Under the pieces are notes generated by a model. The model saw only the letters and a list, made by a program, of their open reading frames with translations, was not told where the DNA came from and made no database searches. The translations under genes were made by a program, and so were the position numbers. Positions 23,269 to 46,191 of a stretch of DNA of 64,000 bases are shown piece by piece (position 1 is the stretch's first letter; each line of letters opens with the position of its first letter). Source of the stretch: Stenocarpella maydis (taxonomy: Eukaryota; Ascomycota; Sordariomycetes; Diaporthales; Diaporthaceae); the NCBI GenBank assembly GCA_002270565.1, contig NQMI01000019.1:124001-188000 (forward strand), given 5' to 3'.

Positions 23269-26200
23269 TTAGGTAGAGGAAGGGGTTGTTGTTGCCAGCT
23301 GGCTATGGTCTATATATCCTTCTACCTTGATGATGAGGGTATTGTTGTTGATAAGGTGTTCTAATGCCTTATTTGGGGTACTCTTCGTGAAGGTATCTGC
23401 TGGGTTATAGTCCCTAGTAATCCACTGGATCTTGTGGATCTCATGCTTCTCGTATGACTGCCTTAACGCCATTATATTAATTATAAGGTGCTTCTCTTTT
23501 GTTGTCCCTAGCTTGACTAGATACTTATATAAAGAGTAGGAATCTGTATAGATGATAAGAGGGATCTCTGGCAGATTTAAGCGTGTGGTAATTTGGTGGA
23601 GAGTAGCAGCTATTATGATCCCTATATTAAAGCCATTAACTATGCTGTAGATCTTGGAAGTAAGTATGTTATGTATAACCCTCTTGTACTTGGTTGATGA
23701 CTAATGGAGGATATTCCTGGTGATCTCCCATGTAGATGGTTGCTTGGCTTGCGCTTTATTTACTAGGGTAATTATATAGCTAATCTGAGAACTAAGGTCC
23801 TTGTTGTTAGCAAAAGATCCGTTTATGAAGATTATTAACTTGGCTGCTGTGAGGTCTAGAGGAATGTAGTTAAGATTATGGCTAAGGTAATTTGCTTGCT
23901 ACTTTAGCTGCTTGTTTAATTTGGTGTAGTCTTCTTCTTTGGGGTCTTGGATTTAAGCTGCAATAGAGAGGTTAAATGCTGCTTCCGGGTGGTAAATAGA
24001 AGCTAGATATGCTCCTCTTGTGTGTTGCTTTATGTACTGTTGAGCGCGGTCCTTAGCTGTATAGTTAACTGGCTGTATCTTTGCCCTTTGGCCCTTCTGT
24101 CTGAGATGTATGATGCTGTTGTGTGATATCGTGATCTTCGTGCTATTGAAGTCCAGTGATTTCTTAGGAGTTAGCCTGTCCTTTGGCTTGTAGCGGATCT
24201 CCTCCTCCTTAATCTTCTGTTCTTTAAGCTCTGAAAAAGCTGGGGTATAAAGGGTAAGAGTATTATTAGTCTGCATAGCGGTAATACTAAAGATGTCCTT
24301 ATTGCTATGGTTAGCTATCAAGAGGTATGGGTTGTATGTAGATATAATTATCCCCAGCTTCTTAATATAGTGCTTGTGGTATGCGGCCCACTAGTGCATA
24401 CTGGCTTCTGTAATGCTATATAAGGGCTTGACTACTCTTATGATTGTGCCGGCCGGGTATTTGCCCCTTATTTTAGGGGGAAGGTAGCATAGAATGGGCC
24501 TCTTGAGTGTGGATTTTGACTATGGATAGGCCTGAGTAATATTATGGAGCTTAAGATGGAGTCCCTTAGTTATTAATGTAGGTGTAAGAGTAATGAGAAG
24601 TTGATGATTTGTATGTTGTACCGTTGGTAACTGTGTGAGGATCTTATGCTTTATAAGGTTACTAAATCTGGCAATAATGAGGCGGGACTTCTTATATGGC
24701 TTCTTAGTTTTGCCCTTAATCTCCCTGATAATGCGAGATTTGAAGATTTGGATTCCTTTGTGCTTCCGCTTATTAAACTGCTTAAACTAGAATACTCCTT
24801 GGCTGATTAGCTTGGATACTTCCTTATTGTCTGACTCTTCGAAGGGGTCGCCTGGGGTGGTGATGATGCTGTCTTGGTGGAGCTTTAGAGCGAGCTTGTA
24901 GTTCTTGACTTCGCGTGGGGTGAGGAATATGTAAGCAGTGATCTTATCTTTTATATTATTGGTAGTAGTAGCGCTGTTGTTATTGTTGTTTGTGATGATA
25001 ACTGCCTTCTTCCTGCTTTTGGCCCCCTGTGGCTGTCCTTGTTGTTGAGGGATTACTGGGTTAGGAATAGCTGGTATAGGGTCTGGCTTGAAGCATACTG
25101 GCTCCTTTGGGGTATTATTAGGGTTTGGTAGATTAAGAGGTTCTTCTTCATTATGATAGTATGGCTGTATAAGGGTTGACCGGAAGATGATTGGTCCATT
25201 AGGAAGGTTGATTGTTATATTGTGGTTGTTAATAGAGAGCAGTTTGTATGGGCTTTGCTACCTAGTCTTTTCTCTTTATACCTGAACTTCGCTCTGGAGT
25301 GGTAGGCTTAAGACTTCTGATGTAATTAGGCTGTTTCTTGTATGTAATGCTTTACTGATCTTGTGTGTAGCGTTGATTTTCCTGATCTCCTTTATTGCCT
25401 TTTGTATTGCCTCGGCTCTCTTTAGAGTAGATGGTGTAGGGGCTGAGTCCTCTGTTATATGCGGGTATGCTTTAAATATAAGGAGAGTTGGTATGAGACT
25501 GTCCGGGTCAACTGTATTGTTAACCGCACTAAAGCTTGCCTGTAGTATAGCTTCTTTAGTAAATGTGGTTGATAACTTGATGTATAATATGTTAAAAGCC
25601 CTGTATAAAGGAGTGTGATATTGCTTTACTTTACTAATCGACTAGTGTGCTTCTGCAGGTATTTATTTATATGTAATCCTTATAATATGTGTAGTACTCT
25701 TGAACTTGCTGGAAGCAAAGTTAGTCCCCGCATTGAATATAAGACAGTCTGGGGGACCCATGTATGTATTGATCTAGCAGCTCCTTAGGGCTTCCCATGT
25801 ATCTTTGGTGGAGAGAGAAGCTAAGAATCGTCCGGCTTGGAAGGAGGTGGCTAAGTTAATAATGTGTAGTATAGGGAGCCCTATTAAGTATATTATATTT
25901 ATGATAACTTTATAGTTAAAGTTAATGTTATTATGGAGGTTAAACTTGAATCTCTGGGGCGCGGGAGAGTGTATTTGGTAATGGTGGTAGAACTTGGTAA
26001 TAGCCTCTAGTGCTGAGGAATTAATATTGTGGCTAGCGCCCGCTAGTAGCTGAGAGAGCCTCTTAACTGATGGGTGCCTAAATTGTCTGTGTAGTCGTTG
26101 TAACTCGGTCTCCGTGAGGAAGAGAACGGGGGCGTTGCTGCCCTTGTTGATATCTGTAAGGAACTATGGATGTCCCTACTTTTAAGTAATAGGAAACATC

Positions 26201-28120
26201 CTCTTATGCTGCTAATTTGGCTTATATTATATGACTTTATTGGTTGTATTCCGCATAAAGAGCGAGTGTGTATTTATGTCTTGTATATATAAGAGGAAAG
26301 GGGTTGGCGTCTTCATTATGTGGAATGTTAAGTTGCTGGCTGCTGTATTAATTATAGTTGCCCCTATTGACTGTAGTAGTTCTCCTGGCCTAAAGCGGAC
26401 TGTTGCTTCTCTTATGCGAGATATATTAAGAGTGATAGGCATAAGTTGCTGTAGCGCAATATATTGGTTGTGCCTAATAGTGGAGTAGTTGGCTGCGCTA
26501 GTATCTAGGAGAATTCTTTAGAAATGCTAATGTGAGTAGTTGTCTATTGTAAAGACCTCCTTAATACTGCTGGCTCTTTCGCCGGTCTTGGTGTCGCTGG
26601 TGTTAACGTTGTCCCTGCTAGTTATAGGGCTGGGGTTATCCTAGTCCTCCTTATTGTTGTTGATGCTAAAAGTATGGAGGAAGGCTTGGTTTACTAACTA
26701 TATGTAGTTTTTGCGGCTTTTAGCACTGCTAATAAACATACTGGTGCTTTCTTGATTATTGCTCTTATAGTTAATACCCTTATAGTTAATAAAAAATGAG
26801 TAGAATTCCTTATCTGAGCTGCTATATATATATATATATATGCCCTTGGCCCTCTAGCGTTCTTGGAAGGAGTGATTTGATGACCAATACCCCTCCTTCT
26901 AGCAGATATAGCACCTTTTCTTATCTAGGGGGTTATCTCTCCTGTGCCTTCCATATGGGTAGTTATCTCCTCTAGGGGGTGGTTGGAAGTTGCCCTAGGG
27001 GCGATAGTTGCTTTGGGGATAGTAGTTACCTTATCTCGGGGGGTATCGCTTATATGCAGAGCCTCGTGAGTAGTTGCCTTTATGCTGCTGGTCATTATTA
27101 TACCAGCGGTTTAGGTAGTACTGGTTATTTTTAGGGTGCTTAAAGTGATAAAAGTAGTTATTACCAGGGTAGTCAAAGTGCTTATTGTTGCTCTGGTCTT
27201 CCTCGTTATTATAGTTGCCATTTAGCCAATCGTTATTGCCTTGCCCTATAGTATATTGCTGGGAGGGGCGCTAAGGTCCTGATGATGCAGTATAATGATG
27301 GAGCATATTACATGCTTTGTTAGCAGTAGCCGGGGCTGTTACCTTGATGTAGTAGAACTTAGGTATACTATGTATTGCGTATATGAGGTTGTTATATAGT
27401 GGTTTGTCTCTAAGTGCTCCTTTATAGCTAAGTATTTGGGTATATTGCTTTATATTTTTAATTAGAATCTCTATTACTTCTAATGGGGTTTTGTTCTCAT
27501 TTCTTTGCTGTGTTAATGCAAAAGTAGTAATGTTTTATGCGGTTAAATATACTTGTTATCTGCTGTCTGTATTAAATTGTTACTTGAGTTTGGCATATGT
27601 TGTAGTAAAGGTATCTCTATTTGTGATTAACTGGATATAAAAGTCCTTGGCCTTGCCCTTTAATATTGCGGGTAATGCTGCTTGGAAGTGGGTAGGGTAT
27701 AGGTGATTATTCTTGTAGATATTATAAAAAAGATGAATCTTATTGTTAAGTACTTTATCTGTTGCCCTGGTAAACTTCTTGTTGTTTGAGTAGTATTTGG
27801 CTAAGTTGGCGGATATTCCTTTTTTTAATGGTATGCCATTTAGTGGTACTGGAGGGATTGTTGCGTACTTCTCATAGGATACTCGGAATTCTTCCTACTT
27901 GGGTGATGACTTGTAGCCGTTAGAGGTCTTAAAGGCATAGATGCTGTGTGGCTGACGGGATGGTGGTTGAGGTTCGGGTATGGCTGGTGCAGTAGGTTGC
28001 AGTATGGGTCCCTAAGTACTTGGGCCTGTTCTCTAGTTGTTGCTTGGTACTGGTTTGTATCCTTTAAATGATCTGTTGTTATTAAAAGGGATATAATTAT
28101 GATATCTCTTTAACTAAATC
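23269..28120 (-). pseudogene. Degenerate copia gag-pol
   Basis: The coding region can be followed from Gag (about 28,120-26,650) through protease, integrase (about 26,200-25,300), reverse transcriptase (about 25,050-23,800) and RNase H to a stop at 23269-23271. Fragments stay in the same frame over long distances but are interrupted by numerous stop codons. The longest uninterrupted pieces are about 120 residues (near 23,953-24,321, RT to RNase H) and 70 residues (near 26,227-26,442, protease region). No functional polyprotein can be made from this copy. Confidence 0.88.
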
Positions 28121-29131
28121 ATCTGTTAATACTGGTGTTATATAGATGCTAGGGCTCTCGGCAGGGATTCTGACTTTAATAGTTTTATAAAGGCCTTTGT
28201 ATTATTATTGACCCATAGGTGTATCCCTTTGTATTGTAGTATCTTCTTGAGGGCTGAGAGGATATTGTAATGGACTGCCTTGAATGCTGGTTCTTCCCAA
28301 CCCTGGAAGTTATTCTTAAACTCCTTATAGATATCTTAGCTAGTAAGTCTTGCGTATGCTTAATAGCGCTATTACATATAGGTACTTAGGTGCATTATAT
28401 ATTATCTTGGGTTACTTAGGGCCTCTGGATCTGGGTCTATTCCTTATAGGTTGGTATTAAGATCTGATTTAGTAGCAGCTTTCTTAAGTGATGTTTCTTT
28501 AATTATATCCTATAAGTTGATCGGGCTAAGACCAGTAGCACCTGCTGGTGTAGTTGTTGATGCTGATGGTGTAGGGGTGTTATCTTTACTAGCTATTATA
28601 ATGTATGGGTTGTATGGTTGATAACAGGGGTGTGCTAGGGTAAAGTAGGGGTTAAATAAATAGTAATAAGGGGTAGTGAGTGTATAGGGGTAAGCTTGTT
28701 AGCAGGGGGTAGTAAAGATGTGCTGGCTGGTAGAGTTAACCTTGGTTGGTATAGCTGTTGCTGGGGTTGTTGCTGGTTGATTGCTGATGTATGCTGAAGT
28801 GGTAATATCTTTAGCGTTATCTTTAAGAGTAGCGGGGGTTAGCAATATTGTATAATATCTATATTTTACGGTTGCCTTCTAATGATACTTAGGGCGTGAT
28901 GGATGCATGTTTAATGAAGATAAAGTATAATATAGTGCATATAGAGCCCTCTTTGCCTTATGATGGGTAGTAATAATATTGTTAAAGTCCACTATAGCAT
29001 CATTATGGAATCCGCTGAAGTCTCTTTAAGGGGCGGTACCGTTAGTACCGTTAGTACAGCCACTGTTAAGCAGCGAAGGCCTGTCTCTTCAACCTTGCTA
29101 ATCTGTAGTCGCCCTTGCAACTATTAATTAG

Positions 29132-29344
29132 TGTTGGCTGGGTTACGTATTACAATATGATTGGGGGTTATGGTTAAAATTCTCTCTATCTAGGAGTAGT
29201 GGGTGTAGTGGGCGTAGCCCGCCAGCTATCTCGGGCTTATATAGAGGGTAGTGGTTGCTGAGTAAGCAACTACGTCCTCTGGCTACAGTATGGTGGCTGT
29301 AGCGCTAGCCCACCAGTGTGCTGTTGCACACTGCTATTGCCACA
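29132..29344 (-). repeat. Right LTR (5' LTR of the minus-strand element)
   Basis: A 213-bp direct repeat of the left LTR. Compared with it, this copy has CA to TA, TGCA to TACA and CG to TG changes plus an extra CT. The substitutions are all C:G to T:A. Confidence 0.95.
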
Positions 29345-29750
29345 TATATATTTATTTATTTTTGTCAAGAAATAATATTAAATCCCATAACATTCTCTAA
29401 TACACCCTTTTATTAGTATTTCTAGCAAAACGGTACCTGCTAATCCACTTAATAATACGTTCTACATACTAATAACTAACGTTAGTTTATAATATATACT
29501 TTAAAGAATAATATTGAATACATTATATTTTTAGTATATTATAATAAACACAGCTTAATCGATATTTAATTAACATATATATTAATAGTCCATAGTGAAT
29601 TATAATTTAAGGGCTAATATAATCATAATTCAATAAAGAGTATATTTTCTTTATTTAAGTTACCTAGTTTAACGTTATATTATAATCCTGCTAATCACGA
29701 CAAACTACTATAGTTAATTAAAAATAAGCAATTAAGAAGAGTAAGTATTA
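29345..29750. other. AT-rich block flanking the retrotransposon
   Basis: About 400 bp of AT-rich non-coding DNA runs from the right LTR to a fragment related to the inverted repeats of the 34.6-36.9-kb element. It is probably the decayed interior of another copy of that element. Confidence 0.5.
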
Positions 29751-29816
29751 ATTAGTGCTAACCTTTATTAATTATTTACCCCTAGGGGTGCTAGGGTTGG
29801 CTGAAGTTAGTGGAAA
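29751..29816. repeat. Fragment related to the inverted-repeat element's terminus
   Basis: This stretch resembles 36813-36878 (shared TATTAA, CTAGGGGTGCTAGGGT-type and GGCTGAAGTT/GCCTAAGGTT segments) in the same orientation as the right terminus, with scattered differences. It looks like the remnant end of a second copy. Confidence 0.5.
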
Positions 29817-30602
29817 TAGCACAAGTGCGTTACTTACTGATAGTGCAAGTGCCCACTATTTTGTTGGCGCCCGGGGCTTTACTCCGCCGCTCGCTAGGGG
29901 ACGTTGCTGGTGGCTGACTCCTGAAGCCCAGGAGTTGTCATGGTAGCATTCCTGTGCGCACGCCATCGATGTAATTAATCACGGTGTGGAGTAGCCGGTT
30001 TCCGCGATGGCGCAGCCGCAGCACTATTGCATCATGCCGTGGGTAGATTACCCCATGGGGAAATGTTGTCTACCGATGCCGCATGCTAAGTAACAGCAAG
30101 GCCCAGGAAGGGCCACGGAATGCATAATGCATTATTTATATACGTTAACATGGTGAAGATGACATCACAAAGTGATTTTACCATGACAGTAGTGAGATCA
30201 GCCGGGCCATATATGCTTGCTATACCTAAGTATAAATCCACAAACGATGAACATCCATCAAGCACGATGCTCTCTGTATCACAATGTTAAATACTGTACA
30301 TGTGGCTCGGCTTACATTAGTTTTGGATTACAAATGCAAATTCCCGATTCGTCGAAGCAATTAGACTACATGAAATGTGGACTTCTCCACCCAGACTCGC
30401 CTTTGCCAATACAATAGGTTGGGTTGTGTGACCTGGTGGATCGAAATTGCTTATAGATAGTGTACAACAAATCTCAACAGGGGTTGCGAGTCATGATATG
30501 CTACCACGAAGTATCATCTAGATGCACGTGAATTCCCTCTGCCGCGTAGTGTGCATACCTGAGTAGTATTCTAGTGTATTGCCGTTACTACGGTCAGCCA
30601 CA
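29817..30602. other. Gene-free region downstream of the PLP enzyme gene
   Basis: 786 bp without a supported gene. It should include the 3' UTR of the leftward PLP enzyme gene. Confidence 0.5.
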
Positions 30603-31700
30603 TCAAGAGTTGTGGGTAATCTTCGGGAAGGCGCCGAGGGCGGCTTGGCCTCCTGTATGTACAAACAAGACTTCCTTAGCCTGATCAAGCTCCACCTTGC
30701 CGGCCATGTCCAGGATGGCTCCCAAGGCCCGCCCCGAGTAGATCGGATCGCTCACGATGCCCTCCTTGCTGCCAAGCTCCCTCACGCCCGTCTCTGCCGT
30801 TTCGTCCCAGTCTTGGTGGGTTCCGCAGTTATATCTTGTGTCCAAGACGACGTCGCCCGGCTGGACAGCATCCTTGCCAAGTCCTATGACTTCCGCCGTG
30901 CGCTGCGCAATGTCGAGGATCTTGCCTTCCAGCTCACCTGCCGGCTTGTTGTAAGTATCAATGCCGACCAGGGTGCGGCAGCGTCGCTGGACATGCCGGC
31001 CTGTGTCTGCTGCTGCGTGGGCATCGACAGCTTTGAAACCGGCAATCATGCCTGCCAGGGTGCCCCCCGATGCCACGGGTACGACAACGACGTCAAAGAA
31101 GACGCCGAGCTCGGCCTCCTGCTCCGCGATCTCAAAGGCCCACCGCGCGAAGCCCAGGCCCCCGTACAAGTGCGCGGACGCCCCCGAGGAAATGATGTAC
31201 GGGATGCCGCCGTTCTCCGTGACTCGGTCGGCCGCGGCCTCCATCGAGGTTCCCGGTGCTGCGATCATAGCGCCCAGGATCCTGTTGACCTGTACGTTAC
31301 CAAGTCGATAGAACGGCGACAATGATGCTTCCTGGTCTACACCCTGGCCAGCAGTTGCCGCAGGGGGCACCTGCGGCACCAGCACGGCATCCAGGCCGAG
31401 ACTGTTTGCAGCTGCCGCGACTTGACGCATGTGGTTACTCTGGACACCACCCGTGGTGATGAGTGTGGTGGCACCCTTTTCTAGTGCCTCTGGCACAATG
31501 TATTCGAGCTTGCGGATCTTGTTGCCACCCATGCCCAGGCCGGAGGAACAGTCTTCCCGCTTGACCCACAGCTTAGCACGCGACGGAGTCGTTTTGTGCA
31601 GGTGCTTGGTTAGGTGCGGCATGGGGTGCAATGGCGAGGGTCTTGGCCAGAGAAGCTCTGTCCTTGGGATGGATGCGAATGGCTCGGGAAGGTGGACCAT
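30603..31700 (-). CDS. PLP fold-type II enzyme, D-cysteine desulfhydrase / ACC deaminase family
   Basis: A single exon of 365 aa. The PLP-binding lysine is Lys61 in GGNKIRKLEY, followed by the GGVQSNHMRQVA loop (Ser88), ASAHLYGGLGF, the phosphate-binding VASGGTLAGM, and DTRYNCG, SDPIYSG and VHTGGQAAL near the C-terminus. This is the ACC deaminase/D-cysteine desulfhydrase family. Bacterial ACC deaminase has Glu295 and Leu322 at two specificity positions; here the equivalents are Ser322 and Thr349 with the same 27-residue spacing. Ser and Thr are what plant D-cysteine desulfhydrase carries, so sulfide, pyruvate and ammonia release from a D-amino acid is more likely than ACC cleavage. It is head-to-tail with a 2OG oxygenase gene, which suggests a biosynthetic or detoxifying role in the surrounding cluster. 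No targeting signal is seen. Confidence 0.88.
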   Translation of the reverse strand: MVHLPEPFASIPRTELLWPRPSPLHPMPHLTKHLHKTTPSRAKLWVKREDCSSGLGMGGNKIRKLEYIVPEALEKGATTLITTGGVQSNHMRQVAAAANSLGLDAVLVPQVPPAATAGQGVDQEASLSPFYRLGNVQVNRILGAMIAAPGTSMEAAADRVTENGGIPYIISSGASAHLYGGLGFARWAFEIAEQEAELGVFFDVVVVPVASGGTLAGMIAGFKAVDAHAAADTGRHVQRRCRTLVGIDTYNKPAGELEGKILDIAQRTAEVIGLGKDAVQPGDVVLDTRYNCGTHQDWDETAETGVRELGSKEGIVSDPIYSGRALGAILDMAGKVELDQAKEVLFVHTGGQAALGAFPKITHNS

Positions 31701-32250
31701 GATTTTCTGTTTCGGGACAGATTTGAGAGGAAAGTCAAGGGGCGCTACGCGAGGTTGTGTAAGTGGGGATTTCCATAAAAGACTGGATATTCAAATGTAT
31801 GGTTTCATCTGGACGTGTCTTGCATCTCTGTGTTCCGCTTTATATCATACGTCGTCCCAATACTTTAATGGTTCCGAGTCCTCGGACTATTACCAATGCA
31901 TCACAGTATCGGATTGAGGAATCATACGCATCCAGACTTATGCACAATCGGCCCCGGGTCAACGGCTGTCGGGTTGTAGTTGCGGGGGGTGTATTACTCG
32001 ACATAAGGGACCGACACACAGGCTTGGGGATATCTCCGAGCCCTGGGTCATCCCAGAACCGTCGACGTGACACGACTCGGTCTGGGGATGTGCACTTGAG
32101 AATACTCCATTTGGCTTTGTCAATCTCTGTCTCTTTGATCCTAAATTCAAAATTCGTGCAACTGCGGGAATCAGCCTTGCGCAGGTGAGCGCGCCCCCCC
32201 CCCCCAACCGCCCCCAAGGGCGGTGAGGCTCACTCTCCGCGAGTCCCGGC
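31701..32250. other. Promoter region of the PLP enzyme gene
   Basis: 550 bp between two leftward genes. A poly-C tract lies near 32190-32202. No coding sequence was recognised. Confidence 0.55.
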
Positions 32251-33364
32251 CTAAATCGCAACGCCCAGGTCCTTCTCCATGCCCCCTGTCGCAATCGAGT
32301 TGGAGCGCTGCTCCTCCATGGTCTGGTTAAAGCTCGCATACTTACTAAGGAACCAGTCGCCGGCTGTAACCTTGCTGCCATCATACCCCTCGAGCACGAC
32401 ATCGTCTCCCGCCCGCAGAAAATAAGCCGTAGAGTAGCGGTCCTGGGACATTTTTCCATGGGGCGGGAGGACCCGGTGCATGGCCGAGCGGAAGCGCTTT
32501 TTGGAGATAAAACGCAGGGTGTCGGCGACGTTGATGATGGCGTGTCCCGACTTGGCGTCGACATACTCCCACTTGCCCGTCACAGGCGAGAGCACCTGCA
32601 AGCCGGGCTGCTCGGTAACTAGCAGAGTGAAGGACCCCACATCCGTGTGCGCGTTGTGTCCCAGACCTGTCTGGTCGGCGAGTTTCTCTGTAAGGGGGTG
32701 ATGCAGGAAGAACAGCGTGCTCTTAGATGGGGCATCGTCTGGGTGGTACGCCTCGTAGCGCTCGCTGCCTTGCAGTCCGACTGCGTCTGAGAGACGCGCA
32801 AGCAATGTCTTCAAGACGTAGTGGGCCGAGAGTTGGTACTTCTCAAACACGACGAGATTGTCAAGTACAATGGGGGGTAGGTGCTCCCGACTCAGCATGC
32901 AGGTCCGGCTGATCTATTGTGCGCACCGTAAGCCTCCGAGTCCTGTCTATGTATTCTTCACATAATTTCAACTTACCCTCAGGGCCTCGAAACCATCCCG
33001 CACATTCTCTGTCACGCCAGACTGGACTCCAGGAGGCTTATACCTGCCCAGGGATTTTCGAGTCAGCGCCTTGCATGTCATTGAGGGAGCGGGAACCACA
33101 CACTTACCCATGAGCGTCAGACAAGGTCTCAGTGGCCAGCTTGTCCTCAAGTGGTTTCTTGAACCATTCTTTCATCAAGCTTGATGCTAATTGCAGGCTA
33201 TTGAGCATTTCACCTGACTGCCAGTCACGGAGATCGAGGTAGAAGAACCCATCCTTCTCGCATGCCTGGACAAGTGTTGCTATAGCATCAGCATCCCTTG
33301 CGGCAACCTTGCTAAAATTGATAGTGTGGAACTGGGCTTGATTTGGAGTGTTGTCTACGGCCAT
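32251..33364 (-). CDS. 2-oxoglutarate/Fe(II)-dependent oxygenase (isopenicillin-N-synthase-like family), copy 1
   Basis: Three exons (33364-33108, 33043-32977, 32913-32251) with introns of 64 and 63 bp encode 328 aa. An N-terminal DIOX_N-type domain (INFSKVAARD, ACEKDGFFYLDL) precedes the double-stranded beta-helix. Iron ligands are His197 and Asp199 in NAHTDVGSF and His254 in MHRVLPP. Arg267 and Ser269 (DRYSTAYF) form the 2-oxoglutarate carboxylate anchor, which separates it from true isopenicillin N synthase only by substrate. Such enzymes hydroxylate, desaturate or cyclise small molecules. Intron positions and phases are identical to those of the paralogue at 37145-38329, so the two arose by duplication. 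It lies next to the PLP enzyme and is a candidate tailoring enzyme of the proposed cluster. The substrate is unknown. Confidence 0.9.
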
Positions 33365-34014
33365 GGTTGGCGACGTGTGATTTCTTAGAGGATAGTGTGT
33401 TGAAATGTAGTTCAGTCCTGGAGTTTGAACAGGCAATGTCTTGAATGAGGTATCTGAAGCACCGAGGCATCTATCGTAATATATATTGAAGGAATCTGTA
33501 CGATCAATTGCTACCTTTGAAAGTCGTTACAGTTCTTTGAGTCCTGGAGTCCAACAGACTCTTGCAGCAGGGAGAAAAACTCCCAGATACCTCCCTCTCT
33601 GATGTCGGAACCTACGGAGAATTGGAACATCGTCTCCAGGTAGCTAAGCTACAGCGGGATGAATTTGACATGCTTGGAGCGACGATGAGGGCCGACAAGT
33701 ATGCCAACCCATAACGTCACCGATTCTCACGCAGGAGCTGGCACGAGGCCTCGGGGCGTACGCGAGCTGTCGTCGTTGATACGATTTGATCGACAGACAT
33801 TTTCATCGGAGCATCGGGATTCCGCTGGGGCCGGTGCAAAGTTCGGACATATACTGTGTTCGGACTATTCTAGAATTGGGAGGTGTTGCGAATCTCAGTC
33901 GGATGATAAATCGTTTCCCTCATGTCCCATAATTTTAACCCACGTGGCTAAGCTTAATAACACGTAAGCCTTAATTGCATAAGCATATATAATTATATAA
34001 GAATATAGTAAATA

Positions 34015-34045
<31 letters not shown>

Positions 34046-34635
34046 ATTATATATTAAAACTAGGGCCTAACTCTCATATAGCATGCTTAGCACCTAGTCC
34101 CTAATGAATACGCTTTAAAGAAAATATTAAAATATAGGTTATAGATTATTTATATTCTTTTAAGACCCCTACTAACTCGGTCTTAGAAATAGGAACCTAT
34201 AGTATAAGTATAAATTTACGTCTAGATGTAATTAAGTTAAGTTAATAATTAGGCATTTGCGCGACCTTTGATTTAGAGGGCACGTATAAGGAAAAGACCG
34301 CCAGCTGCCGCTATTAACACGGGAAAGACCTTGTAGCTGAGTAAGGGGGCAGTTAGTCTCCAAATTAGAGGTAGCATAGTTGGGGTAGGGCGGGTCAGTC
34401 CTTCTTCTTGCAAAGAAGTCCTCAGCTTGGTTCTTTGGTACTAACGGGAGTCAAACCCATACCCCTACACTTAGCTACTGCGTACGAGTAAACATAAGGC
34501 GCTGAACTATTGCGCTATAGTGCTCAAGTAAAGTTTATAGTTATATTTCTAATCCTATTATAATTCATTTAATAGAAAAAGTTATAACTATATGTAACTA
34601 TACTTAAATAAAATGAAAAATATTACTCAATAACA
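33365..34635. other. Upstream region of oxygenase copy 1 grading into AT-rich repeat DNA
   Basis: The first 600 bp is GC-balanced promoter sequence. From about 33,955 the DNA is AT-rich with a TA run at 34020-34046. A tRNA-like sequence lies at 34436-34524. No protein gene was seen. Confidence 0.55.
34436..34524 (-). ncRNA. tRNA-like sequence (tRNA pseudogene or tRNA-derived SINE head)
   Basis: On the minus strand there is an A-box-like TAGCGCAATAGTT with a perfect GCGC/GCGC D-stem, and a T-arm with a 5-bp stem and 7-nt loop around GGTTTGACTCC (B-box consensus GGTTCGANTCC with one C-to-T change). The acceptor stem pairs at 5 of 7 positions. The anticodon stem pairs at 4 of 5, with a loop long enough to include a short intron. 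No sensible anticodon or nearby T-run terminator is seen, so a decayed tRNA or SINE is more likely than a working gene. Confidence 0.4.
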
Positions 34636-34637
34636 TA

Positions 34638-34787
34638 GGGTACCAGGAAGTAGCTAGGACTAGGAAGTAGCTAGTTTTTAGCAAATTCATTAACTCTAGG
34701 CTACCCTAGCATCTGCTTAGGGCTAAGTAAGTAATGAAGGTTAGTATTAATTAGTACTAATTATACTTAATTGTTTAAAATCATTTA
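34638..34787 (+). repeat. Left terminal inverted repeat
   Basis: Pairs with 36777-36928 in inverted orientation. It contains two AGGAAGTAGCTAG-type copies within the first 40 bp. Confidence 0.7.
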
Positions 34788-36776
34788 ATTTCATGAATTT
34801 AAAGTGATTAATATAAATATAAAATTAATGTAAAAACACTAACCTTTCATAAAAACCATATATCTTATATTGTATAATATTAACTTTACGTTTAATCTTA
34901 ATCCAAGATAAGCTATTAATATATATATATTTATATTAATTAGCATTAATCAGGCTAAATTTATTATTATTTGTTTAAAGTCTAGCTTATTAAATTCTTT
35001 ATATTCTTTTTATAGAATTTTATATTATACTTAATCCTATTATAGTTATTATATCATTATTTATTTAGTTTATTATAAATTAAATCCTCATTATCACTAG
35101 CTGTTTTATTAGCTAATTACTTTCCTTCCTATTTTCCATTAATTATTACTAAAGATTCCTTAATATTCAGTATTTCTTTAGACTAAACCTGACTATTTTA
35201 GCCATTTAATACTTTATAAGCTTAATATTAGCGTTCTTAAGAGTATAAACATAATTACTTAAGAAAATAATTTAATATACTATTATTTATATATTCTTTA
35301 TAAAGTTTATAATCATATTGCAAATTAATATAAAGAACTTCTTATAAGAATTAAAGATTTGAATTTCGATAAGTTTTAATTATTCAAAGATTTAATAACT
35401 ATTTAAGGTTATTTATAATTCTTATTTTAAAAGCAATATAAAAATTAATTACTTTAAAGTTTACAAGTAAATATTTAACTTAGAATAACACAATCTAGAT
35501 CTTATAAAGAAATATTAGCTTTTTTAAACTTAGCTTTTATGTTTTCTTTCACAAAAACCTTATTATAAGGTATCTTAAATTAAATAATATGATTAATTCA
35601 AGCTTGAATAAAAAGCTTAATTTATTTATTATATATATATTTAATAATAAAAGTATTATATCATTTAATAACTATAATATATAAAACACATATATTCATA
35701 TATTTATATAAATAAAGATTTTCATATACTTTCTTAAGTTTTACTATTTTATATTCTCTATATTTATTTATGGTAAGTATTTTATATTTATATTTGATAT
35801 ATATATATATATATATATATACTAAAACACTTAATTTATGTTAAATTACGTTTATAATTTATTTCTTCATTTAAAATAACCTTAACTATTTAATTTAATA
35901 GAAACTTGAATTTTATTAATTGATTAAAAAGAAAATAAATATTTTAACAATAAATAATACGATATATTACCCCTTTATATTAATTCATTTAATAATTATC
36001 ATATATCATTAGTCTGTAACTTATATAAATTTGTTTCTTTGATATTAAATAAAGTATGTAATAATCATAGTTAAAATTATTTAATATATTATAAAGTCAA
36101 ATTTATTAAAACTATTAAAGTTTTGTTTTAAAATATTATTTTAATTATTATATTATAAGATAATCGAAATTAATCTTTAATAAGTTTTAAATCATTATTG
36201 CTAGCCTTTTAATAATTATAAAGCTAATTAAGTAGAATTTTTAAGATTAATTACATGTTAATAAAGTATTATACTTAATATTTATTAATTAGATTATTAT
36301 TATATAATAGAAATAAAACATTAGTTATATTTTTCATATTGTATATGATATAAAGAATTTTTAAATATTTTATTTAATAATATGCTTAATAAAGATTGGT
36401 TTTTGAATTATATTAAATTTTGAATTTTGAATATATGATATTTGTAGCTATATTACTATGTTCTTTTATATTATAATATAATTTAAGGAATATTACAGAT
36501 TTCAATATATATAATTATACTTATAAATAATATATTATGTTTTTTTTAAAAGAAAAAAGCTTTTAAATAACTTAAATAATTAAGAGCAGTTTATGTTTTT
36601 GAAATACAAAATACATTTTAATAATTTTAAATTATAATATACTAAAGGTTCATATAAATAGAGAAATGTAAGAATAATACAAAAATTAATAATGTATTTA
36701 CTATTTAAAAGGGCTATTTTCTATAAACCTTGATGCCTTTTAGCCTTATTATACCTATCTTAATACCTCTAAATTT

Positions 36777-36928
36777 GGGAAATTAATTTAACTAATTAAG
36801 TATAGTTAGTACTAATTGATGCTACCTTTTATTAAATATCTAGCCTTAGGGGGGTGCTAGGGTAGCCTAAGGTTGATAAATTTGCTAAAAACTAGCTACT
36901 TCCTGGTCCTGGCTACTCCCTGGCACCC
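36777..36928 (-). repeat. Right terminal inverted repeat
   Basis: Inverted counterpart of 34638-34787. It keeps G/C at several positions where the left end has A/T, so it is the less decayed end. Confidence 0.7.
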
Positions 36929-37144
36929 TACGTTAATCCTTTTTAAAGAAAGTTAATGTATGGTAAATAACTTGGGTGAACAAGTACATTGTATCTTATG
37001 TTGAGCTTCAGCAAGTTTGGCAATGAGTGTGTATTGTCGCCTAACTACAATCCTAGTTCTTAACACCCCCCTCCCCCCCTCGAACCTATTATCCTTGCAA
37101 GCGCCCCCACCCCAGCCATCCTTAGGTCCTTTCCCTTTGTCACA

Positions 37145-38329
37145 TCAGAAGCTAGCCTTGAGCTCCTGAGCCATGCCCCCAGACAGGACAGTCCGCTGCT
37201 TCTGGATCTCGTGGGGCATCTCATACATCTGGTACTTTTGGAGGTACCACGACTTGGCGTCCGAGTCCTGGCCGTTGCTGTCCTCGAACTCGGTCGAGTC
37301 GTTGGCGCGCAAGAAGTATGAGATGGAGTACCGGTCCTCGTGCTGGATGCCGCCGACGGGGAGCACGCGGTGTAGCGCGGACCGGAACCGCCTGCCCGAG
37401 AGGAAGCGCAGCGTGTCCCCGACGTTGACAATCATCTTGCCCGCCTGCGGCTCGATATACTCCCACGTGCCCGTGCTCGGGGCGGAGGCCTGGAGCCCCC
37501 ACTGCGGTGCCCAGAGGATGGTCAGGGTCCCGATATCTGTGTGCATGTTCTGGCCGACCTGGTCTGGGTTCTGCTCCCCGGGCGGGTAGTGTAGGAAGTA
37601 CAGCGTGCTCTTGGAACGGCGGTCGTCGTGGTGGTAGGTTTCGAGGCGGGCCTTGCCCTTGAGATCAAGCCCATCTGAGAGGCAGTCGAGCAGGAGCTTG
37701 GCGATAAAGTGGCATGACGCGGTGAAGTGGTCAAAGAGGTCCAGGTTATCGCTCACGACGGGCGCCAGCGCCCAGCGTCCGGCGAGCTCGTGCTTGCCAA
37801 TCTACATATCGCCGTGGCGCGTCAGCAGGGCACGAGAGTCACAAAACTCTATGGAGAGATCCACGGCGAACTAACCTTCAGAGCCTCAAAGCCGTCCCGG
37901 CGCGACTCAATCGCCCCGGACTGGTTGCCTACGCCCTTGAACCTGCGGAAGACTTGTCTCAGTTATGATTCTTACCCGCACGCCCAAAATTGCCCTCTTT
38001 CTTTTCTCCCTTCTCCCTTGTCCCGAATTGGACTTGTTCGTGAAAAAGACTCACCCGTGAGCAAGGGATACGGTCGGGGTCTTGAGCTTCACGTCGTTGG
38101 GCAGCGAGAACCATTTCTTCGTGATCAAGTCGACCTCGTTGAGATCGTCCCAGAACTTTGCAGAGCCAGGGCTCTGAAGGTCAAGGTAAAAGAAGCCGTC
38201 CCGCTCACATGCCTTGACCAACTTGGCCACCTCCTGGGAGTCCTTGTCGAAGAGATTCGCAAAGTCGATAGTGAGAAGATCGGCCTTGGGGACATCTCGA
38301 TAAAGCTCCGCGGTTGCTGCAGACGACAT
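37145..38329 (-). CDS. 2-oxoglutarate/Fe(II)-dependent oxygenase (isopenicillin-N-synthase-like family), copy 2
   Basis: Three exons (38329-38055, 37942-37876, 37801-37145) with introns of 112 and 74 bp encode 332 aa. The N-terminal domain (ACERDGFFYLDLQSPG) is followed by the catalytic jelly-roll. Iron ligands are His201 and Asp203 in QNMHTDIGT and His258 in LHRVLP. Arg271 and Ser273 (DRYSISYF) bind 2-oxoglutarate. The ends of exons 1 and 2 fall at the same residues (after the Ala/Ser-His-Gly and FEAL positions) and in the same phases (2 and 0) as in copy 1, which shows common descent, although the proteins differ throughout. It sits downstream of the MFS transporter at 39556-41025 on the same strand. 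The inverted-repeat element separates it from copy 1. It could catalyse a second oxidation in the same pathway. Confidence 0.9.
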
Positions 38330-39555
38330 TGTGTACGTTCCTTGCTATTTGTGGGTAATGCAGATGAAATGCAGATGCAGTCACAGGGCTGAAAAATGGG
38401 ACAGATGATTGGCGCTGCTGGTGGTCTACGAACGGCTCTAGTGTGGCGATGCGTATGCTCCTCTTCCAGTTGAAAGCACTAACCAGATGATCAACAGCCA
38501 CTTGCCGCGTAGTATTATAAATCTCTGCCTTATATGACACACACATCTTTCTGGAGATACGGCAGATCTCTGACGGCCCAAGTCACAAGCGCCGTCCTTG
38601 CTCGGACAATAGATGGATTGATGCTTCGACATGGACGTGGGCATCACCAATCGGATACATCGGCAAGGGTGGCTTGAAAGTATGCCGACGTAGATGCCCG
38701 ACTCGGAAAGTGACTGGAGATTGACCTTGATTTCGGATATTTCTGTAAACGAGGCGCTCACCGGCCAGACGCGGTGGAGTGGGAACAACTGTTTGTCAGG
38801 TGGTTGGTTCCCTTGTGGCAAATAGGCAATGTCTCCGTGAGCTCTGGGAACCCACCACCCTCCACACAAAGACTCTTGGAGGTTCGGCACTCGGTAGGCT
38901 AGGTATGCGCGGGAAAGAAATGCCGGCATGCGCAGGGGTGACGGCTCATAAGTGGCAGGTCGCACACTTAGTTACACATGCGTAGTCATCTCGAATGCCG
39001 CCGGCCCCATTGTCCCAGTCTCCGCGGCAGGAACACGTCGACTTCCGGGGAGGATGTAACTATACGCTCGGTGTTACCTTATTGTTTTGTCGGAGAGGTG
39101 ACTGGGTATACGCGTACGTTGCGTGCTAAGGATCAAGGGGTTGGCAAAGACGATATTAAGGACCTCTGCTCGGGTGCTCCTTGCAATGAAATACTTACCG
39201 GTCGCTATAATTTCCTTTGGTAAAGTTCTACGCTCTAACCTGTGAATAGAGGGGGAGAAATCCCGGCACCTAGTTCAGACCCGTAACAAAATCGTATTAC
39301 ACATGTCCTCGCGTTCCTGTCTCCTTGGGACGAAAAACCTAGCACGCGTCAGATCTCCGGGTTGCTGGTAGGACAAGATGGTATGGTGAAAGATTTTTGT
39401 TTGACTAGTTCTAAGAATAATCGCCCTACATAATGTTCGTCTTGATGCCATGTAAGCTATGTATTAGTATATTATACATCACGAGACTACTCGCATTGAT
39501 CCCTACGACTGCTCCAGACTAAGCTACTCGGGAACCTATTCGCAAAATCACCGAC
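38330..39555. other. Gene-free region between oxygenase copy 2 and the MFS transporter
   Basis: 1.2 kb that should hold the oxygenase promoter and the transporter 3' UTR. No gene was recognised. Confidence 0.5.
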
Positions 39556-41025
39556 TTATCCTTTACGTCGCCTGCTGGTCAGGTAGGATGCCACCAGGAA
39601 CAAGGTACCGATTACGAATGCCACCCCACCAAAGACCTGGGCATACAAGAAACTCCCGCTAGCCAGACCAACAAGAGCGCCAGCGAGCGGAGAGCCCGTC
39701 AGGCAAGCCACCGAGACTACAGAGAAGACCATGCCGACGCGGATGCCCACCTTGTCCAGATCTGTCGTCAGTCCCGAACACGCGGCGGGAAAGAGGCTCT
39801 GCACACCTGCGGCGAACGAGCCGTAGATGATGCAGAAGGCATACAGCCCACCGACCGAGTCCACGGCGATCCAGGAGAGGAGAAGAACACCAGAGAGTAG
39901 CGTCGTCTCCATGAGCGCCTTGACCGGGCCGACGAAGAAGTCGGATATGACAGCGAAGATCATTCTCGCGGGAACTCCGACGCCGTTCATAATGAGGAGG
40001 AGCACAAGAGAGGTGGCGTCTGATAAGCCGATGACTTTTCTGCCAAACGTTGGGATCTGTAGGTAGAGGTGCGCGCAAATCATACTGTCAATATTGTAAA
40101 GAGCACACACAGAATACGACAGGGAAGAAAAGAAGGCCCCGGGGGGGGGGGGGTTGACAAGGCTCGGCAGAAGACTTACGTAGAAGTAGGCAAAGAAGAT
40201 GGCCCAGAAGTTGAGGAACATGCCCGCGCAGAACAGGCAGTAAGTTACGTCTGCAAAAGCGTGCCAGTCGACGAGCGGACCAGACTGTCTCGGCGGGAGG
40301 CGTGTGCGCGCCAGCGCCATGATGATGACTGTGTTGAAAACCATGACAAAGCCCATTGTCCTGATTGTCCAGCCAAACCCGACACGGCCGAGGAGTTGCC
40401 TAGCAATCAGGGGGAACACGATACCCCCGGTTCCAGCCCCGGCCGCGTTGATGGCAAAGGCTACGGCGCGCCTCTTGACAAAGTAGGTGGCGAGGAGTGC
40501 GATGGTGGGGCAGAAGACGAGGCCATCCCCCAGCCCGACGCATATTCCCTGGGCGAGGACGAGCTGCCAGTATCGAGTGGAAATCGATGTCATAAAGACG
40601 CCCAGCATCTGCAGGAGAGAGCCCGCAAGCAGGACCTTGCGATAGTGACCGGCGTCGGTGGCCCGGCCGGAGAAGGTGCCGATGAAAAAGATGAGGAAGA
40701 TCTGGAGCGAGCCGACCCACGAGATGGCGGAGGCAGAGACGCCGAGGTTGGCGTCGTAATAGCTCTGGAAGAACCCAAAGGAGTTGATGTAGCCCCAGGA
40801 GTTGAACTGAACCAGGTGTGCGACGATGGTCTGTGACCACGCCTCCCAGCCGCCGTCTGGCGGAGGGTCTTGGATTTCTGCGGCCGCTGGCGGTGGAAAT
40901 GCAGAGTCGAGTTGGGGGCCCTCCCCTTCTGCAACCGGACTCGGATGCGGCAGAGGGCCGGCGGGCCTACTGATGGCCGATTTCTCAGAATGAGCTGCTG
41001 GCGTGCTGCCCATGTTGGCGGTCAT
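39556..41025 (-). CDS. MFS transporter, monocarboxylate-transporter-like (MCT/TC 2.A.1.13 type)
   Basis: Two exons (41025-40180 and 40056-39556) encode 448 aa. A hydrophilic Pro/Ala-rich N-terminus ends in PPPDGGWEAW, the signature that precedes helix 1 in fungal monocarboxylate-type porters. About 12 membrane segments follow, with GICVGLGDGLVFCPTIAL and FVKRRAVAFAINAAGAGTGG typical of the family. The 123-bp intron between helices 6 and 7 has good GTAAGT and CAG sites but is in frame and without stops. Unspliced reading would add 41 residues, including a Pro-rich run from a poly-C tract, which disrupts the central loop, so splicing is preferred. Fungal members move carboxylates, riboflavin or secondary metabolites. 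Its position beside the beta-lactam-synthetase-like gene suggests export or uptake for that pathway (inference). Confidence 0.88.
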   Translation of the reverse strand: MTANMGSTPAAHSEKSAISRPAGPLPHPSPVAEGEGPQLDSAFPPPAAAEIQDPPPDGGWEAWSQTIVAHLVQFNSWGYINSFGFFQSYYDANLGVSASAISWVGSLQIFLIFFIGTFSGRATDAGHYRKVLLAGSLLQMLGVFMTSISTRYWQLVLAQGICVGLGDGLVFCPTIALLATYFVKRRAVAFAINAAGAGTGGIVFPLIARQLLGRVGFGWTIRTMGFVMVFNTVIIMALARTRLPPRQSGPLVDWHAFADVTYCLFCAGMFLNFWAIFFAYFYVSLLPSLVNPPPPGAFFSSLSYSVCALYNIDSMICAHLYLQIPTFGRKVIGLSDATSLVLLLIMNGVGVPARMIFAVISDFFVGPVKALMETTLLSGVLLLSWIAVDSVGGLYAFCIIYGSFAAGVQSLFPAACSGLTTDLDKVGIRVGMVFSVVSVACLTGSPLAGALVGLASGSFLYAQVFGGVAFVIGTLFLVASYLTSRRRKG

Positions 41026-41610: not shown

Positions 41611-43056
41611 ATGGCAGTCCCTTCGCGCAATGGCCATGATGGTCCACCCGCTGCCATCCGAGGCACCCCGTCGTGGCTGCTGGTGACGAACAAGACGATC
41701 CCCTCGCTGGACAAAGCCCTCGCGCACACGACCGCCTCTGGGGTTTTCATCTATGGCCAAGGCGCTGCCCTGACCTCGACGAATTACCAGTGGAACTCCG
41801 AGGCCAGCCACGGCGAAACCGCCCAGGACCTGCCGGCGTGGGCAACGTCTGTCCGCATACACGACCATGTCGTCCGGCTCCGCACTGCAGCCATGAACGT
41901 GCCCGCGCTGTACTGGATCCAGAACACGACATCGAGGGCCTGGGCCTTCGGCACGGACGCATTCCTGCTGCAGGCCGCTCGCTCCCAGTGGGACATGCCC
42001 GTGGCCCTTGCCGATCCCACCCTCGTCAACCGCGACAGCACGACCAGCTTCCACGGCGTCACCCAGCTGTACCCGAACACCCACCTCGTCCTCGACAGGG
42101 ACCCCGTCTCCGGCGCGTGGAGGGTATCCTCCCAGGGCCTCGATGACCCCGTCTTCCGGGCCCTCCGCCCGCAGATCACAGGGTTCGACGACGCCGGGGC
42201 GCGGTTCGTGGCGGCGGTCCAGAGGTCCATCGCCGACGCGACACGCGAGGACCTCGACAGCTCCACGGGCATCGCCTGTCTGCTCTCGGGCGGCATCGAC
42301 TCGGGCGCCGCCACCACCTTTGCCGTCAGGGCCGGGCTGAAGGTGACAGCTTACAGCGCGGGCTCGCCCTGGGGCAACGAGCACGAAGAGGCGCAGGAGC
42401 TGGCCGACCACCTGGGGATCCCGCTGCGGCGCATCGAGCTGACGGCCGAGGACCTGCTCGCGGCGGTGCCCGACTCGATGCGGGCGCTCGCGACGGCCGA
42501 GAGGGAGCGCATCGACATCGCCGTGACCATCACGGCCATCCTGCGCAGCGGCGCCGTCAGGGAGCAGCACATCCTCACGGGCTACGGCAACGACCTCATG
42601 CTCCTCGGGCTCCCGCCCGACTCGACCGCCACCGAGGTCCTGCTCAACGACATCATTACCGAGGTCGACTTTGCCCGCCACAGCGGCGAGTTCACAGACT
42701 ACGTCGCCCGCCTGTACGGCAAGAGGCTGACGCACATCTACTGGCACGAGGCCGTCGTCACCACCGCGCTCGACATCCACCCGTCGGCCAAGGTCCACGG
42801 CGGGCGTGAGAAGGCCTTCTTCCGCGCCGCGATGGAGCCTTACATGCCCAAGACGGCGGCCTGGCGGAAAAAGATCGGCATCCACGTCGGTGGCGGGCTG
42901 CAGGGTGGTCTCGACGCGCTCTTTGGGGGCCCAGGCCACAAGGTTGCCGCGTATCGTGACGTGTTCCGCGCCCTCGCAGACCGGCTGGTGGACGATCCCT
43001 TTGCAAGCATCGAAGACCTGGCGCCAAAGCCCGCGCTACGGCAAGCGGGCAAGTAG
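41611..43056 (+). CDS. Beta-lactam-synthetase / carbapenam-synthetase-like ATP-dependent ligase (asparagine synthetase superfamily)
   Basis: A single exon of 481 aa. The N-terminal half (about 20-190) resembles a class II glutamine amidotransferase fold but lacks the N-terminal catalytic Cys, as in beta-lactam synthetases, so it should not use glutamine. The C-terminal synthetase domain has the ATP pyrophosphate loop SGGIDS (226-231). Where asparagine synthetase has Glu in SGEG, this protein has Tyr325 in LTGYGND, as in beta-lactam synthetase (Tyr348) and carbapenam synthetase. Glu360 and Lys421 (KIGIHVGGG) fall at the spacing of the catalytic Glu382 and Lys443 of that enzyme. Predicted chemistry is adenylation of a beta-amino acid carboxylate followed by intramolecular amide (lactam) closure; an intermolecular amide is the alternative. 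Neighbours are two MFS transporters and two 2OG oxygenases. Reference residues are from memory, not from an alignment. Confidence 0.8.
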   Translation: MAVPSRNGHDGPPAAIRGTPSWLLVTNKTIPSLDKALAHTTASGVFIYGQGAALTSTNYQWNSEASHGETAQDLPAWATSVRIHDHVVRLRTAAMNVPALYWIQNTTSRAWAFGTDAFLLQAARSQWDMPVALADPTLVNRDSTTSFHGVTQLYPNTHLVLDRDPVSGAWRVSSQGLDDPVFRALRPQITGFDDAGARFVAAVQRSIADATREDLDSSTGIACLLSGGIDSGAATTFAVRAGLKVTAYSAGSPWGNEHEEAQELADHLGIPLRRIELTAEDLLAAVPDSMRALATAERERIDIAVTITAILRSGAVREQHILTGYGNDLMLLGLPPDSTATEVLLNDIITEVDFARHSGEFTDYVARLYGKRLTHIYWHEAVVTTALDIHPSAKVHGGREKAFFRAAMEPYMPKTAAWRKKIGIHVGGGLQGGLDALFGGPGHKVAAYRDVFRALADRLVDDPFASIEDLAPKPALRQAGK

Positions 43057-44450: not shown

Positions 44451-46191
44451 CTAACACCCTCGGCCGAGGCGAATCCTCCCAAAGCCCCGCTGGACCTGCT
44501 CGCGCCGGGCTGCGCCGTCCTGGAAGTCGTCGGTGGAGCTGCAGCCGCTGGCGATCTTGTGGCTCGGCTTGTTGCCGAACATGTGGACCAGGATGGTCAT
44601 GACGAGGCTGCTGGCAATGCTGAGGCACAGGATGCCGATCATGGCCAGGTTGCTCCGGCGGTAACGGTAGGGGCCCGGCCTCGCGTCCTCTGGCCAGCCC
44701 GTGTAGAGTGCGTAGGTGGTGGTGATGCTGCCCAGGTTGCCGAGCCCCGAGACCAGGGCGGCTGCGGCGGCGACGCCGACCTCGCCGTGGCGGCGCTGGA
44801 AGATCTCGTTGGTCCACGTCATGCAGATTGGCACGGTGGGCCCGAGGCCAAGGCCAACCAAGAGCAGGCCTCCGTACCGGGCCCAGGAGTTGCTCAGGGC
44901 AAAGGTGACGGCCAGAAGGCCAGCAATCTGCACGAGGACAGCGCACGAGAAGAAGACTGGGCGCAGGCGGTGGAAGCGGTCTGAGATGGGCGTGACGATC
45001 AGGATGGAGATGAAATCCATGATCCAGATCGGCGCGAACAGCAGGCTGACCTGGATGCTCGTGTATGCCGGGTTGATCGAGGCGATGATGACGTTCCCGT
45101 AGAGCTGTGTGCCGATGCCGACGCCCACGACTCCGAAGTACATGAGCACAAGCGGCCAGAGACGCCAGTCAATCAGGACGTACCCCAGGTCTGCCCACGT
45201 CCAGGGACGCGGGTGGTAGACCCTCCTGAGGTCGTGGTAGTGCACCAGGGCATCCTCGCCCTCGAGAGCCTCGGGCGGCGCAGGGAGAAACCTCATCAGC
45301 CTGGGCTTCTCCCGCTTCTGGCCGGGCGGGAGAGGCCTGTCAGGCAGCCACCACAGCAGGGCGAAGCCCAGCATCACCGCCAGCGCACCGTAGACGAGGA
45401 ACATCCACTGGAAGCCGACGAGCCCTCCCAGCCCGTCCATCTCCTGGAAGCCAGCACTGACCAGCCCGACAACAGCGGCTGAGATCTGGGCGGCACTGAA
45501 GTACATGCCGATGCGCTTCCCGGTGCGGCTCGGCGGGTAAAAGAGGGTCAGGTAGTAGCTCATGCCGGGCCACATGCCCGCGATGACGACGCCGAGCAGG
45601 AAGCGCAGCAGCTTGACGGACCAGGCCGCGCGCACGGCGGCGAAGCACATGCCGATGACGCCGACGGCGAGGACGATGCGGGCCATCCAGACGCGGGGGC
45701 TGAGCCTGCTCATGACGAGGTTGGACGGGCAGTCGAAGATGACGTACGAGACGTAGAAGAGGGCCAGGGCGGTGGAGGTGTCCCGCGGCGTCAGGTTGAG
45801 GACCGACATGAGGTCGTGGCCCTGGGCGGTGTTCATGGTCTGGGCGAGCCCGATGTTGGAGCGGATGGCGGAGCAGAGGAAGTATAGGATCCAGAAGGCT
45901 GGCCGACGGTTCTTGGTAAGCCGACGAGTCTGCCCGCAGGACTTGGCCGTCACCCATGGTGATAACATGATGTGACACATGGAAGGGATATCTATCGGGC
46001 GTACCTGGTATGATGCGCATGTCCAGCTTCCTGTAAACCGCCTCGACCCTCTCAACGGGATAGTCCCCCTGATGCGGCTCAGCTAGGACATGCGCCGGTG
46101 GCTGTTCCGCGGCATCCTTGGTGTGTTCGTCACTGCCGACAGAGATGCCACCTCCCGTGGCTGTGGTCTCTGGTGCCTTGGTGGTGGCCAT
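44451..46191 (-). CDS. MFS transporter, anion:cation symporter (Dal5/allantoate permease-like) family
   Basis: Two exons (46191-46005 and 45898-44451) joined by a 106-bp intron encode 544 aa. The junction gives YRKLDMRIIPAFWILYFLCSAIRSNIG, which is the expected start of helix 1 in the ACS family (TC 2.A.1.14), and this supports the chosen splice sites. About 12 membrane helices follow, with LRFLLGVVIAGMWPGMSYYL and FYPPSRTGKRIGMYFSAAQIS as family hallmarks. A cytosolic loop lies between helices 6 and 7, and there is an Arg/Gly-rich C-terminal tail. Family members import organic anions such as allantoate, nicotinate, pantothenate, tartrate or peptides. Here it may carry a substrate or product of the neighbouring putative pathway, but it could equally be an independent nutrient transporter. 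Confidence 0.88.

Follow-up and report, generated by a model that had tools for sequence, protein, structure and literature searches.

A gene at positions 41611-43056 (forward strand) of the window, by which we mean the whole 64-kb stretch of fungal DNA analysed here, codes for a protein that, judging from its sequence, is placed inside the carbapenam-synthetase branch (the CarA side) of the beta-lactam synthetases (BLS), sister to the BLS of Catellatospora. We consider it reasonably probable that this protein is a true member of that branch which closes a beta-lactam ring, that its gene came from an actinobacterial operon together with carB and probably carC, and that these genes were fused in some ascomycetes. 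To our knowledge, it is bacteria in which beta-lactams have been described to arise by the ATP-driven route. The available portions of PMC6097109, PMC6542682 and PMC12482188 deal with bacterial enzymes, and the words fungi and fungal are absent from PMC12482188 and PMC6097109. Among the matches listed from the open-access literature, in part available as excerpts and with preprints and most subscription papers outside its scope, there was no report of a fungal carbapenam synthetase or of fungal carbapenem genes. Such an enzyme, if confirmed, would represent a second, unrelated fungal way to beta-lactams, as well as a case of an operon that moved between kingdoms and was then fused into a one-chain enzyme. 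The candidate genes, some of them recorded under Monilinia laxa and Colletotrichum gloeosporioides, would be of interest both in the search for new beta-lactams and in one-pot biocatalysis.

The gene and its conserved residues

The 481-residue open reading frame announced in the original prediction is present and intact, running from ATG to stop with no interruption; a 474-residue open reading frame overlaps it on the reverse strand. The N-terminal domain (approximately residues 20-183, 41668..42159, forward strand, with an approximate boundary) lies inside the range aligned to the BLS and CarA structures and is devoid of an N-terminal Cys: the sole cysteine of the protein is residue 223, so that the glutaminase Cys is absent, as had been claimed. 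The C-terminal synthetase domain (approximately residues 190-470, 42178..43020, forward strand), recognized by Pfam (Asn_synthase, PF00733, 7.4e-26) and by structure comparison, contains the ATP pyrophosphatase loop LSGGIDS, which the alignment locates at residues 225-231 (42283..42303, forward strand).

Three residues had been proposed to correspond to Tyr348, Glu382 and Lys443 of BLS, which we take to be the catalytic residues of that enzyme. The HMMER alignment recovered precisely these pairs, with offsets of 23, 22 and 22, for Tyr325 (codon 42583..42585), Glu360 (42688..42690) and Lys421 (42871..42873), all on the forward strand, and it also reproduced the gapless segment that had been proposed from Glu360 through the IYWHE motif. 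Tyr325, Glu360 and Lys421, together with Asp230 and Asp328, are invariant in all 18 rows (14 fungal-type, four bacterial) of the alignment used here (A1), and mean column identity among the 14 fungal rows is 64%. The Tyr/Glu/Lys set is also kept in a fused relative (P0017), and a second copy of the gene in the same genome, on contig C301, has the same motifs. The replacement of the AsnB Glu by Tyr held as well, since the corresponding site is Glu or Asp in five of six plasmid AsnB rows, the sixth not matching the motif pattern there, and Glu in the AsnB piece of this same genome. The six plasmid AsnB rows, unlike the window protein, all have Cys at position 2.

Affinity to bacterial beta-lactam synthetases

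When compared with PDB sequences using phmmer, the window protein matched BLS best (88.6 bits), followed by CarA (84.6 bits) and AsnB (28.9 bits), and E-values of 4e-24 against BLS and 6.5e-23 against CarA indicate a sequence likeness that is more than chance. Alignment A1, which was used also for the structure model, includes two bacterial BLS rows. A profile built from the 14 fungal rows alone nevertheless preferred CarA (113.1 bits) and BLS (113.0 bits) to AsnB (50.2 bits) and human asparagine synthetase (22.6 bits), and the result is thus independent of the bacterial BLS rows in the profile. The predicted structure (pLDDT 85.6) had BLS and then CarA as its top matches, and model comparison indicated a fold shared with solved BLS and CarA, at 21-22% identity to these proven enzymes and with the BLS alignment covering model residues 20-480; AsnB shares the fold with a lower Z. 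NCBIfam is unusable as a membership test, given that no model named BLS, CarB, CarA or CarC occurred among the matches listed (for P0015, 25 of 72 families). Rfam gave no match within the 64-kb window.

Three synthetase trees, in all of which long branches were flagged, placed the fungal protein with the BLS/CarA branch and not with AsnB. In the first (40 rows, with L017, L040 and L056 excluded for a missing motif and P0014-P0016 not entered), the fungal clade (99/97) was joined successively by Catellatospora (95/94), by Streptomyces car-type rows (89/58), and by Rhodococcus fascians and Acinetobacter (100/98). The second (40 rows) used six better AsnB rows, those from plasmids, after removal of L026, L038 and P0020-P0022 and the loss of L061 (motif missing), and recovered the fungal clade at 100/98, its union with Catellatospora at 97/90 and that of fungal and car-type rows at 100/97. 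A third tree (41 rows), for which this set was extended by the AsnB gene of the genome itself, represented by its first open piece, had corresponding values of 100/97 for the fungal and 100/98 for the car-type clade. The window copy groups with P0001, in a stand-alone fungal set with relatives from Colletotrichum, Fusarium and Neonectria, whereas relatives from Diaporthe and Neoarthrinium are those with which the C301 copy clusters. Taken together, alignment, trees and fold support the beta-lactam-synthetase-like identity originally proposed, as a reading of the sequence.

A fungal asparagine synthetase, whether ordinary or divergent, would also carry a PF00733 domain, and the grouping of the fungal sequences with AsnB withstood an AU test of 37 rows in which AsnB was represented by three poorer rows (p 0.094). 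This reading is nonetheless very improbable, because the grouping was rejected with the better AsnB rows of the second (p 0.014) and third (p 0.0008) sets, the latter also rejecting a union with the genome's own AsnB alone (p 6e-5), and because the N-terminal Cys is absent and Tyr occupies the AsnB Glu/Asp site. Moreover, the protein scores 66.2 bits against the TIGR01536 cut-off of 267.1, which an annotated BLS fails too (131.8 bits). Bacterial contamination of the assembly, to which the actinobacterial affinity of the closest non-fungal relatives found and the single open frame of the gene might be attributed, is more improbable still. Against it, the gene sits on a contig of 530 kb, in an assembly of 53.5 Mb, beside genes whose parts occupy separate frames, as exons would; the second open copy occupies a separate locus (C301:251675-253015, 54% identical to the window protein); and of 13 stand-alone relatives, five bear the names of fungi and come from contigs between 60 kb and 3.3 Mb long. 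Both readings were set aside, as was identity with the clavam BLS, since the same 37-row AU test rejected a grouping with the clavulanate enzyme (p 0.000255).

Fungal relatives and fusion proteins

The protein search yielded 22 proteins at E <= 1e-3 among the 7998 best candidates scored, comprising 17 fungal-type relatives (P0001-P0017), two bacterial BLS-type proteins (P0018, P0019) and three asparagine synthases (P0020-P0022). Thirteen of the 17 fungal-type relatives (P0001-P0013) are single-domain as recorded. Named sources were Colletotrichum gloeosporioides (35 member sequences), Neonectria ditissima, Fusarium sp., Neoarthrinium moseri and Diaporthe batatas, and none of the fungal-type relatives among the matches listed was named beta-lactam synthetase.

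Two kinds of fusion were found. In five proteins (P0015, P0054, P0055, P0126, P0129) a crotonase (PF00378) continues in frame, through a short linker in a shared position, into the BLS-like part, and in four (P0017, P0025, P0042, P0024) the C-terminus of the BLS-like part continues into a TauD-type, CarC-like oxygenase, to which P0024 adds, in the same frame, a sulfotransferase domain (PF13469, precomputed). We infer that these nine proteins are fungal from their kinship and their tree position among fungal rows, P0017 being present in all three synthetase trees, the others in trees of single parts, and P0129 in none. The crotonase part matched the CarB homologue 5o34 (329.7 bits) and CarB (151.9 bits) better than ordinary enoyl-CoA hydratases (at most 98.2 bits). 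For the oxygenase part, CarC scored 143.1 bits, and the best-scoring enzyme of another kind 42.3. All five CarC residues named in the available part of PMC6097109 (His101, Asp103, His251, Arg263 and Tyr165) are kept in P0017, as counted along the PDB alignment. The Tyr165 site is Tyr in P0017, P0023, P0024 and P0025 and His in P0049 and P0052, whereas the in-frame homology of P0042 ends before it. CarC relatives under fungal names include sequences from Monilinia laxa (P0023; 71% identity, covering 70% of the query) and Penicillium soppii (58% identity, covering 62%); in the latter (P0052) the metal-binding Asp is replaced by Tyr.

In the CarB tree, the CarB pieces of the fusions and P0056, a crotonase part alone, formed one clade (100/95), joined by P0057 (98/98), among actinobacterial CarB/ThnE-type proteins. 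The CarC tree was poorly resolved, with 12 of 24 inner branches open and few deep forks settled, and on the ancestry of fused and stand-alone forms two part-gene trees disagree, with weak support. P0054 and P0017 each come from a 3792-base contig, probably the same one, in which case they would represent one gene. By eye, P0015, P0055, P0025 and P0042 depart from the homologous frame partway, which may reflect sequence error, introns or decay. The protein search kept only lengths of 0.55-1.75 times the query, which excludes intact three-part fusions (about 1000 residues) and therefore biases the sampled pieces towards broken or cut genes.

These observations suggest that an actinobacterial car-type operon entered ascomycetes and became fused in some of them, and the joining of the synthetase to the other two carbapenem-making enzymes hints, at the level of sequence, at a carbapenem-type pathway in fungi. 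We lean, by a narrow balance, towards a scenario in which some ascomycetes make a carbapenem-type beta-lactam independently of penicillin, having acquired CarB, CarA and CarC horizontally as a set that is now fused, in this order, into one protein (once with a sulfotransferase domain following), and in which other lineages, including the one studied here, retain the ring-closing enzyme alone and use it on a new substrate.

Proposed reaction, genomic setting and known systems

Ring closure is the likely chemistry of the window protein. At the LSGGIDS loop the enzyme would use ATP to adenylate a beta-amino acid on its carboxylate, and the substrate's own amine would then close the beta-lactam ring; Tyr325 and Glu360 would act as the dyad and Lys421 would aid the acyl-adenylate chemistry. 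The gene would derive from an operon of actinobacteria and would have travelled together with carB and probably carC, the three enzymes merging into one protein in some ascomycetes. Malonyl-CoA and pyrroline-5-carboxylate, the substrates of CarB, are ordinary metabolites, so that, in principle, a simple carbapenem would be within reach of a fungus possessing all three activities. According to the available portions of PMC6097109 and PMC6542682, CarB converts these two compounds into carboxymethylproline, CarA forms the carbapenam with ATP, and CarC epimerises and desaturates it.

The genome studied here carries two stand-alone synthetase copies, each beside a divergent MFS transporter. The window transporter (39556..41025, reverse strand) is 39% and 33% identical, over two pieces, to its divergent counterpart beside the C301 paralogue. 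That counterpart came only fifth (query counted) when the genome was searched with the window transporter, so that the common arrangement is suggestive only. A second MFS transporter lies on the opposite flank of the synthetase (44451..46055, reverse strand). Possible cluster members on the reverse strand are two 2OG-Fe(II) oxygenases of the DIOX_N/2OG-FeII_Oxy kind, 46% identical over their C-terminal part: one represented by a C-terminal exon (37148..37801) and a DIOX_N piece that is probably its first exon (38078..38293), the other by a single piece (32254..32886). A PLP-dependent enzyme (PF00291, 30603-31700) presumably resembles an ACC-deaminase-like protein. The synthetase gene lies just beyond the edge of a low-GC block at 24000-40000 (0.38-0.46 in 4-kb steps, TA/AT about 1.0-1.3), within which retroelement-like coding remnants were seen by eye at about 24.1-28.3 kb. 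Beside the C301 copy, class III aminotransferase-like pieces were noticed by eye in several frames (L023:1400-3250, reverse strand), two of them with no Pfam match. Family and protein searches found neither CarB nor CarC near either synthetase copy, and in the whole assembly, whose completeness is not given, there was no close relative of either, the best-scoring matches having 27% (CarB) and 25% (CarC) identity. With no recognisable CarB in the genome, the beta-amino acid would be supplied by some other enzyme.

That neither CarB nor CarC was found here could also mean that the ancestral substrate is missing and that a descendant of carbapenam synthetase now forms another ATP-driven amide, either a larger lactam or an intermolecular amide, in a fungal cluster. 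The superfamily is rich in amide ligases, some of them matched below NCBIfam cut-offs, and two copies as diverged as these permit new roles; but Tyr, Glu and Lys are kept in every one of the 14 stand-alone fungal rows, in P0017 and, as motifs, in the C301 copy, and we regard such a change of product as possible though rather unlikely. Unlikelier again is a relic, a synthetase that has been drifting since the rest of its pathway disappeared: the partners not found here and the frame departures of some fused relatives would agree with it, yet both copies are open throughout, the fungal rows retain their overall identity and catalytic residues, and a search whose length filter removes intact fusions would be expected to return broken pieces. 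We retain a ring-closing carbapenam-synthetase relative as the preferred reading.

Among bacteria, a CarB query recovered six loci in the genome collection. In two Catellatospora loci (L013, L016) the BLS-like gene directly follows carB, its GTG overlapping the carB stop in L016. No CarC match was found in the two Catellatospora genomes, nor at 1e-30 in a class-wide search of 394 genomes. At 1e-20, a search of the genus Streptomyces gave CarC matches in six of 392 genomes, and carC, BLS and carB matches occur together in five of the six 19-kb stretches fetched (clearly in L052, L053 and L055, in pieces in L054, and at only 29-33% identity in L056), L051 having carC alone. Plasmids of S. decoyicus, R. 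fascians, Pantoea and Acinetobacter also carry the trio together; on the A. indicus plasmid pB18-1 (L027), crotonase, synthetase and TauD-type oxygenase follow the order carB-carA-carC, with argJ nearby.

Compared with known systems, the window protein shares 21% identity with CarA (PDB 1q15/1q19) in structural alignment and has a fungus as its host; the car operon of CarA includes carB and carC, neither of which was found in this genome. The BLS of clavulanic acid (PDB 1jgt) belongs to a clade apart (AU p 0.000255). The genes of S. cattleya locus L019, presumably those of ThnM/CmmM of complex carbapenems, fall in the same carbapenam-forming branch, although joining the fungal rows to the ThnM type alone was rejected in the 37-row AU test (p 1.3e-5). 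More distant (28-29% identity) is the R. fascians stretch, which we take to be the att locus, where crotonase, synthetase and TauD-type oxygenase stand in a row. The available part of PMC12130866 describes att as yielding an autoregulatory compound. The closest bacterial gene found is the BLS-like gene of Catellatospora. Its product forms the sister clade and shows 41% identity with the window protein across residues 19-466; its pyrophosphatase loop, encoded at about 11300 in L013 and L016, is LSEGIDS rather than LSGGIDS.
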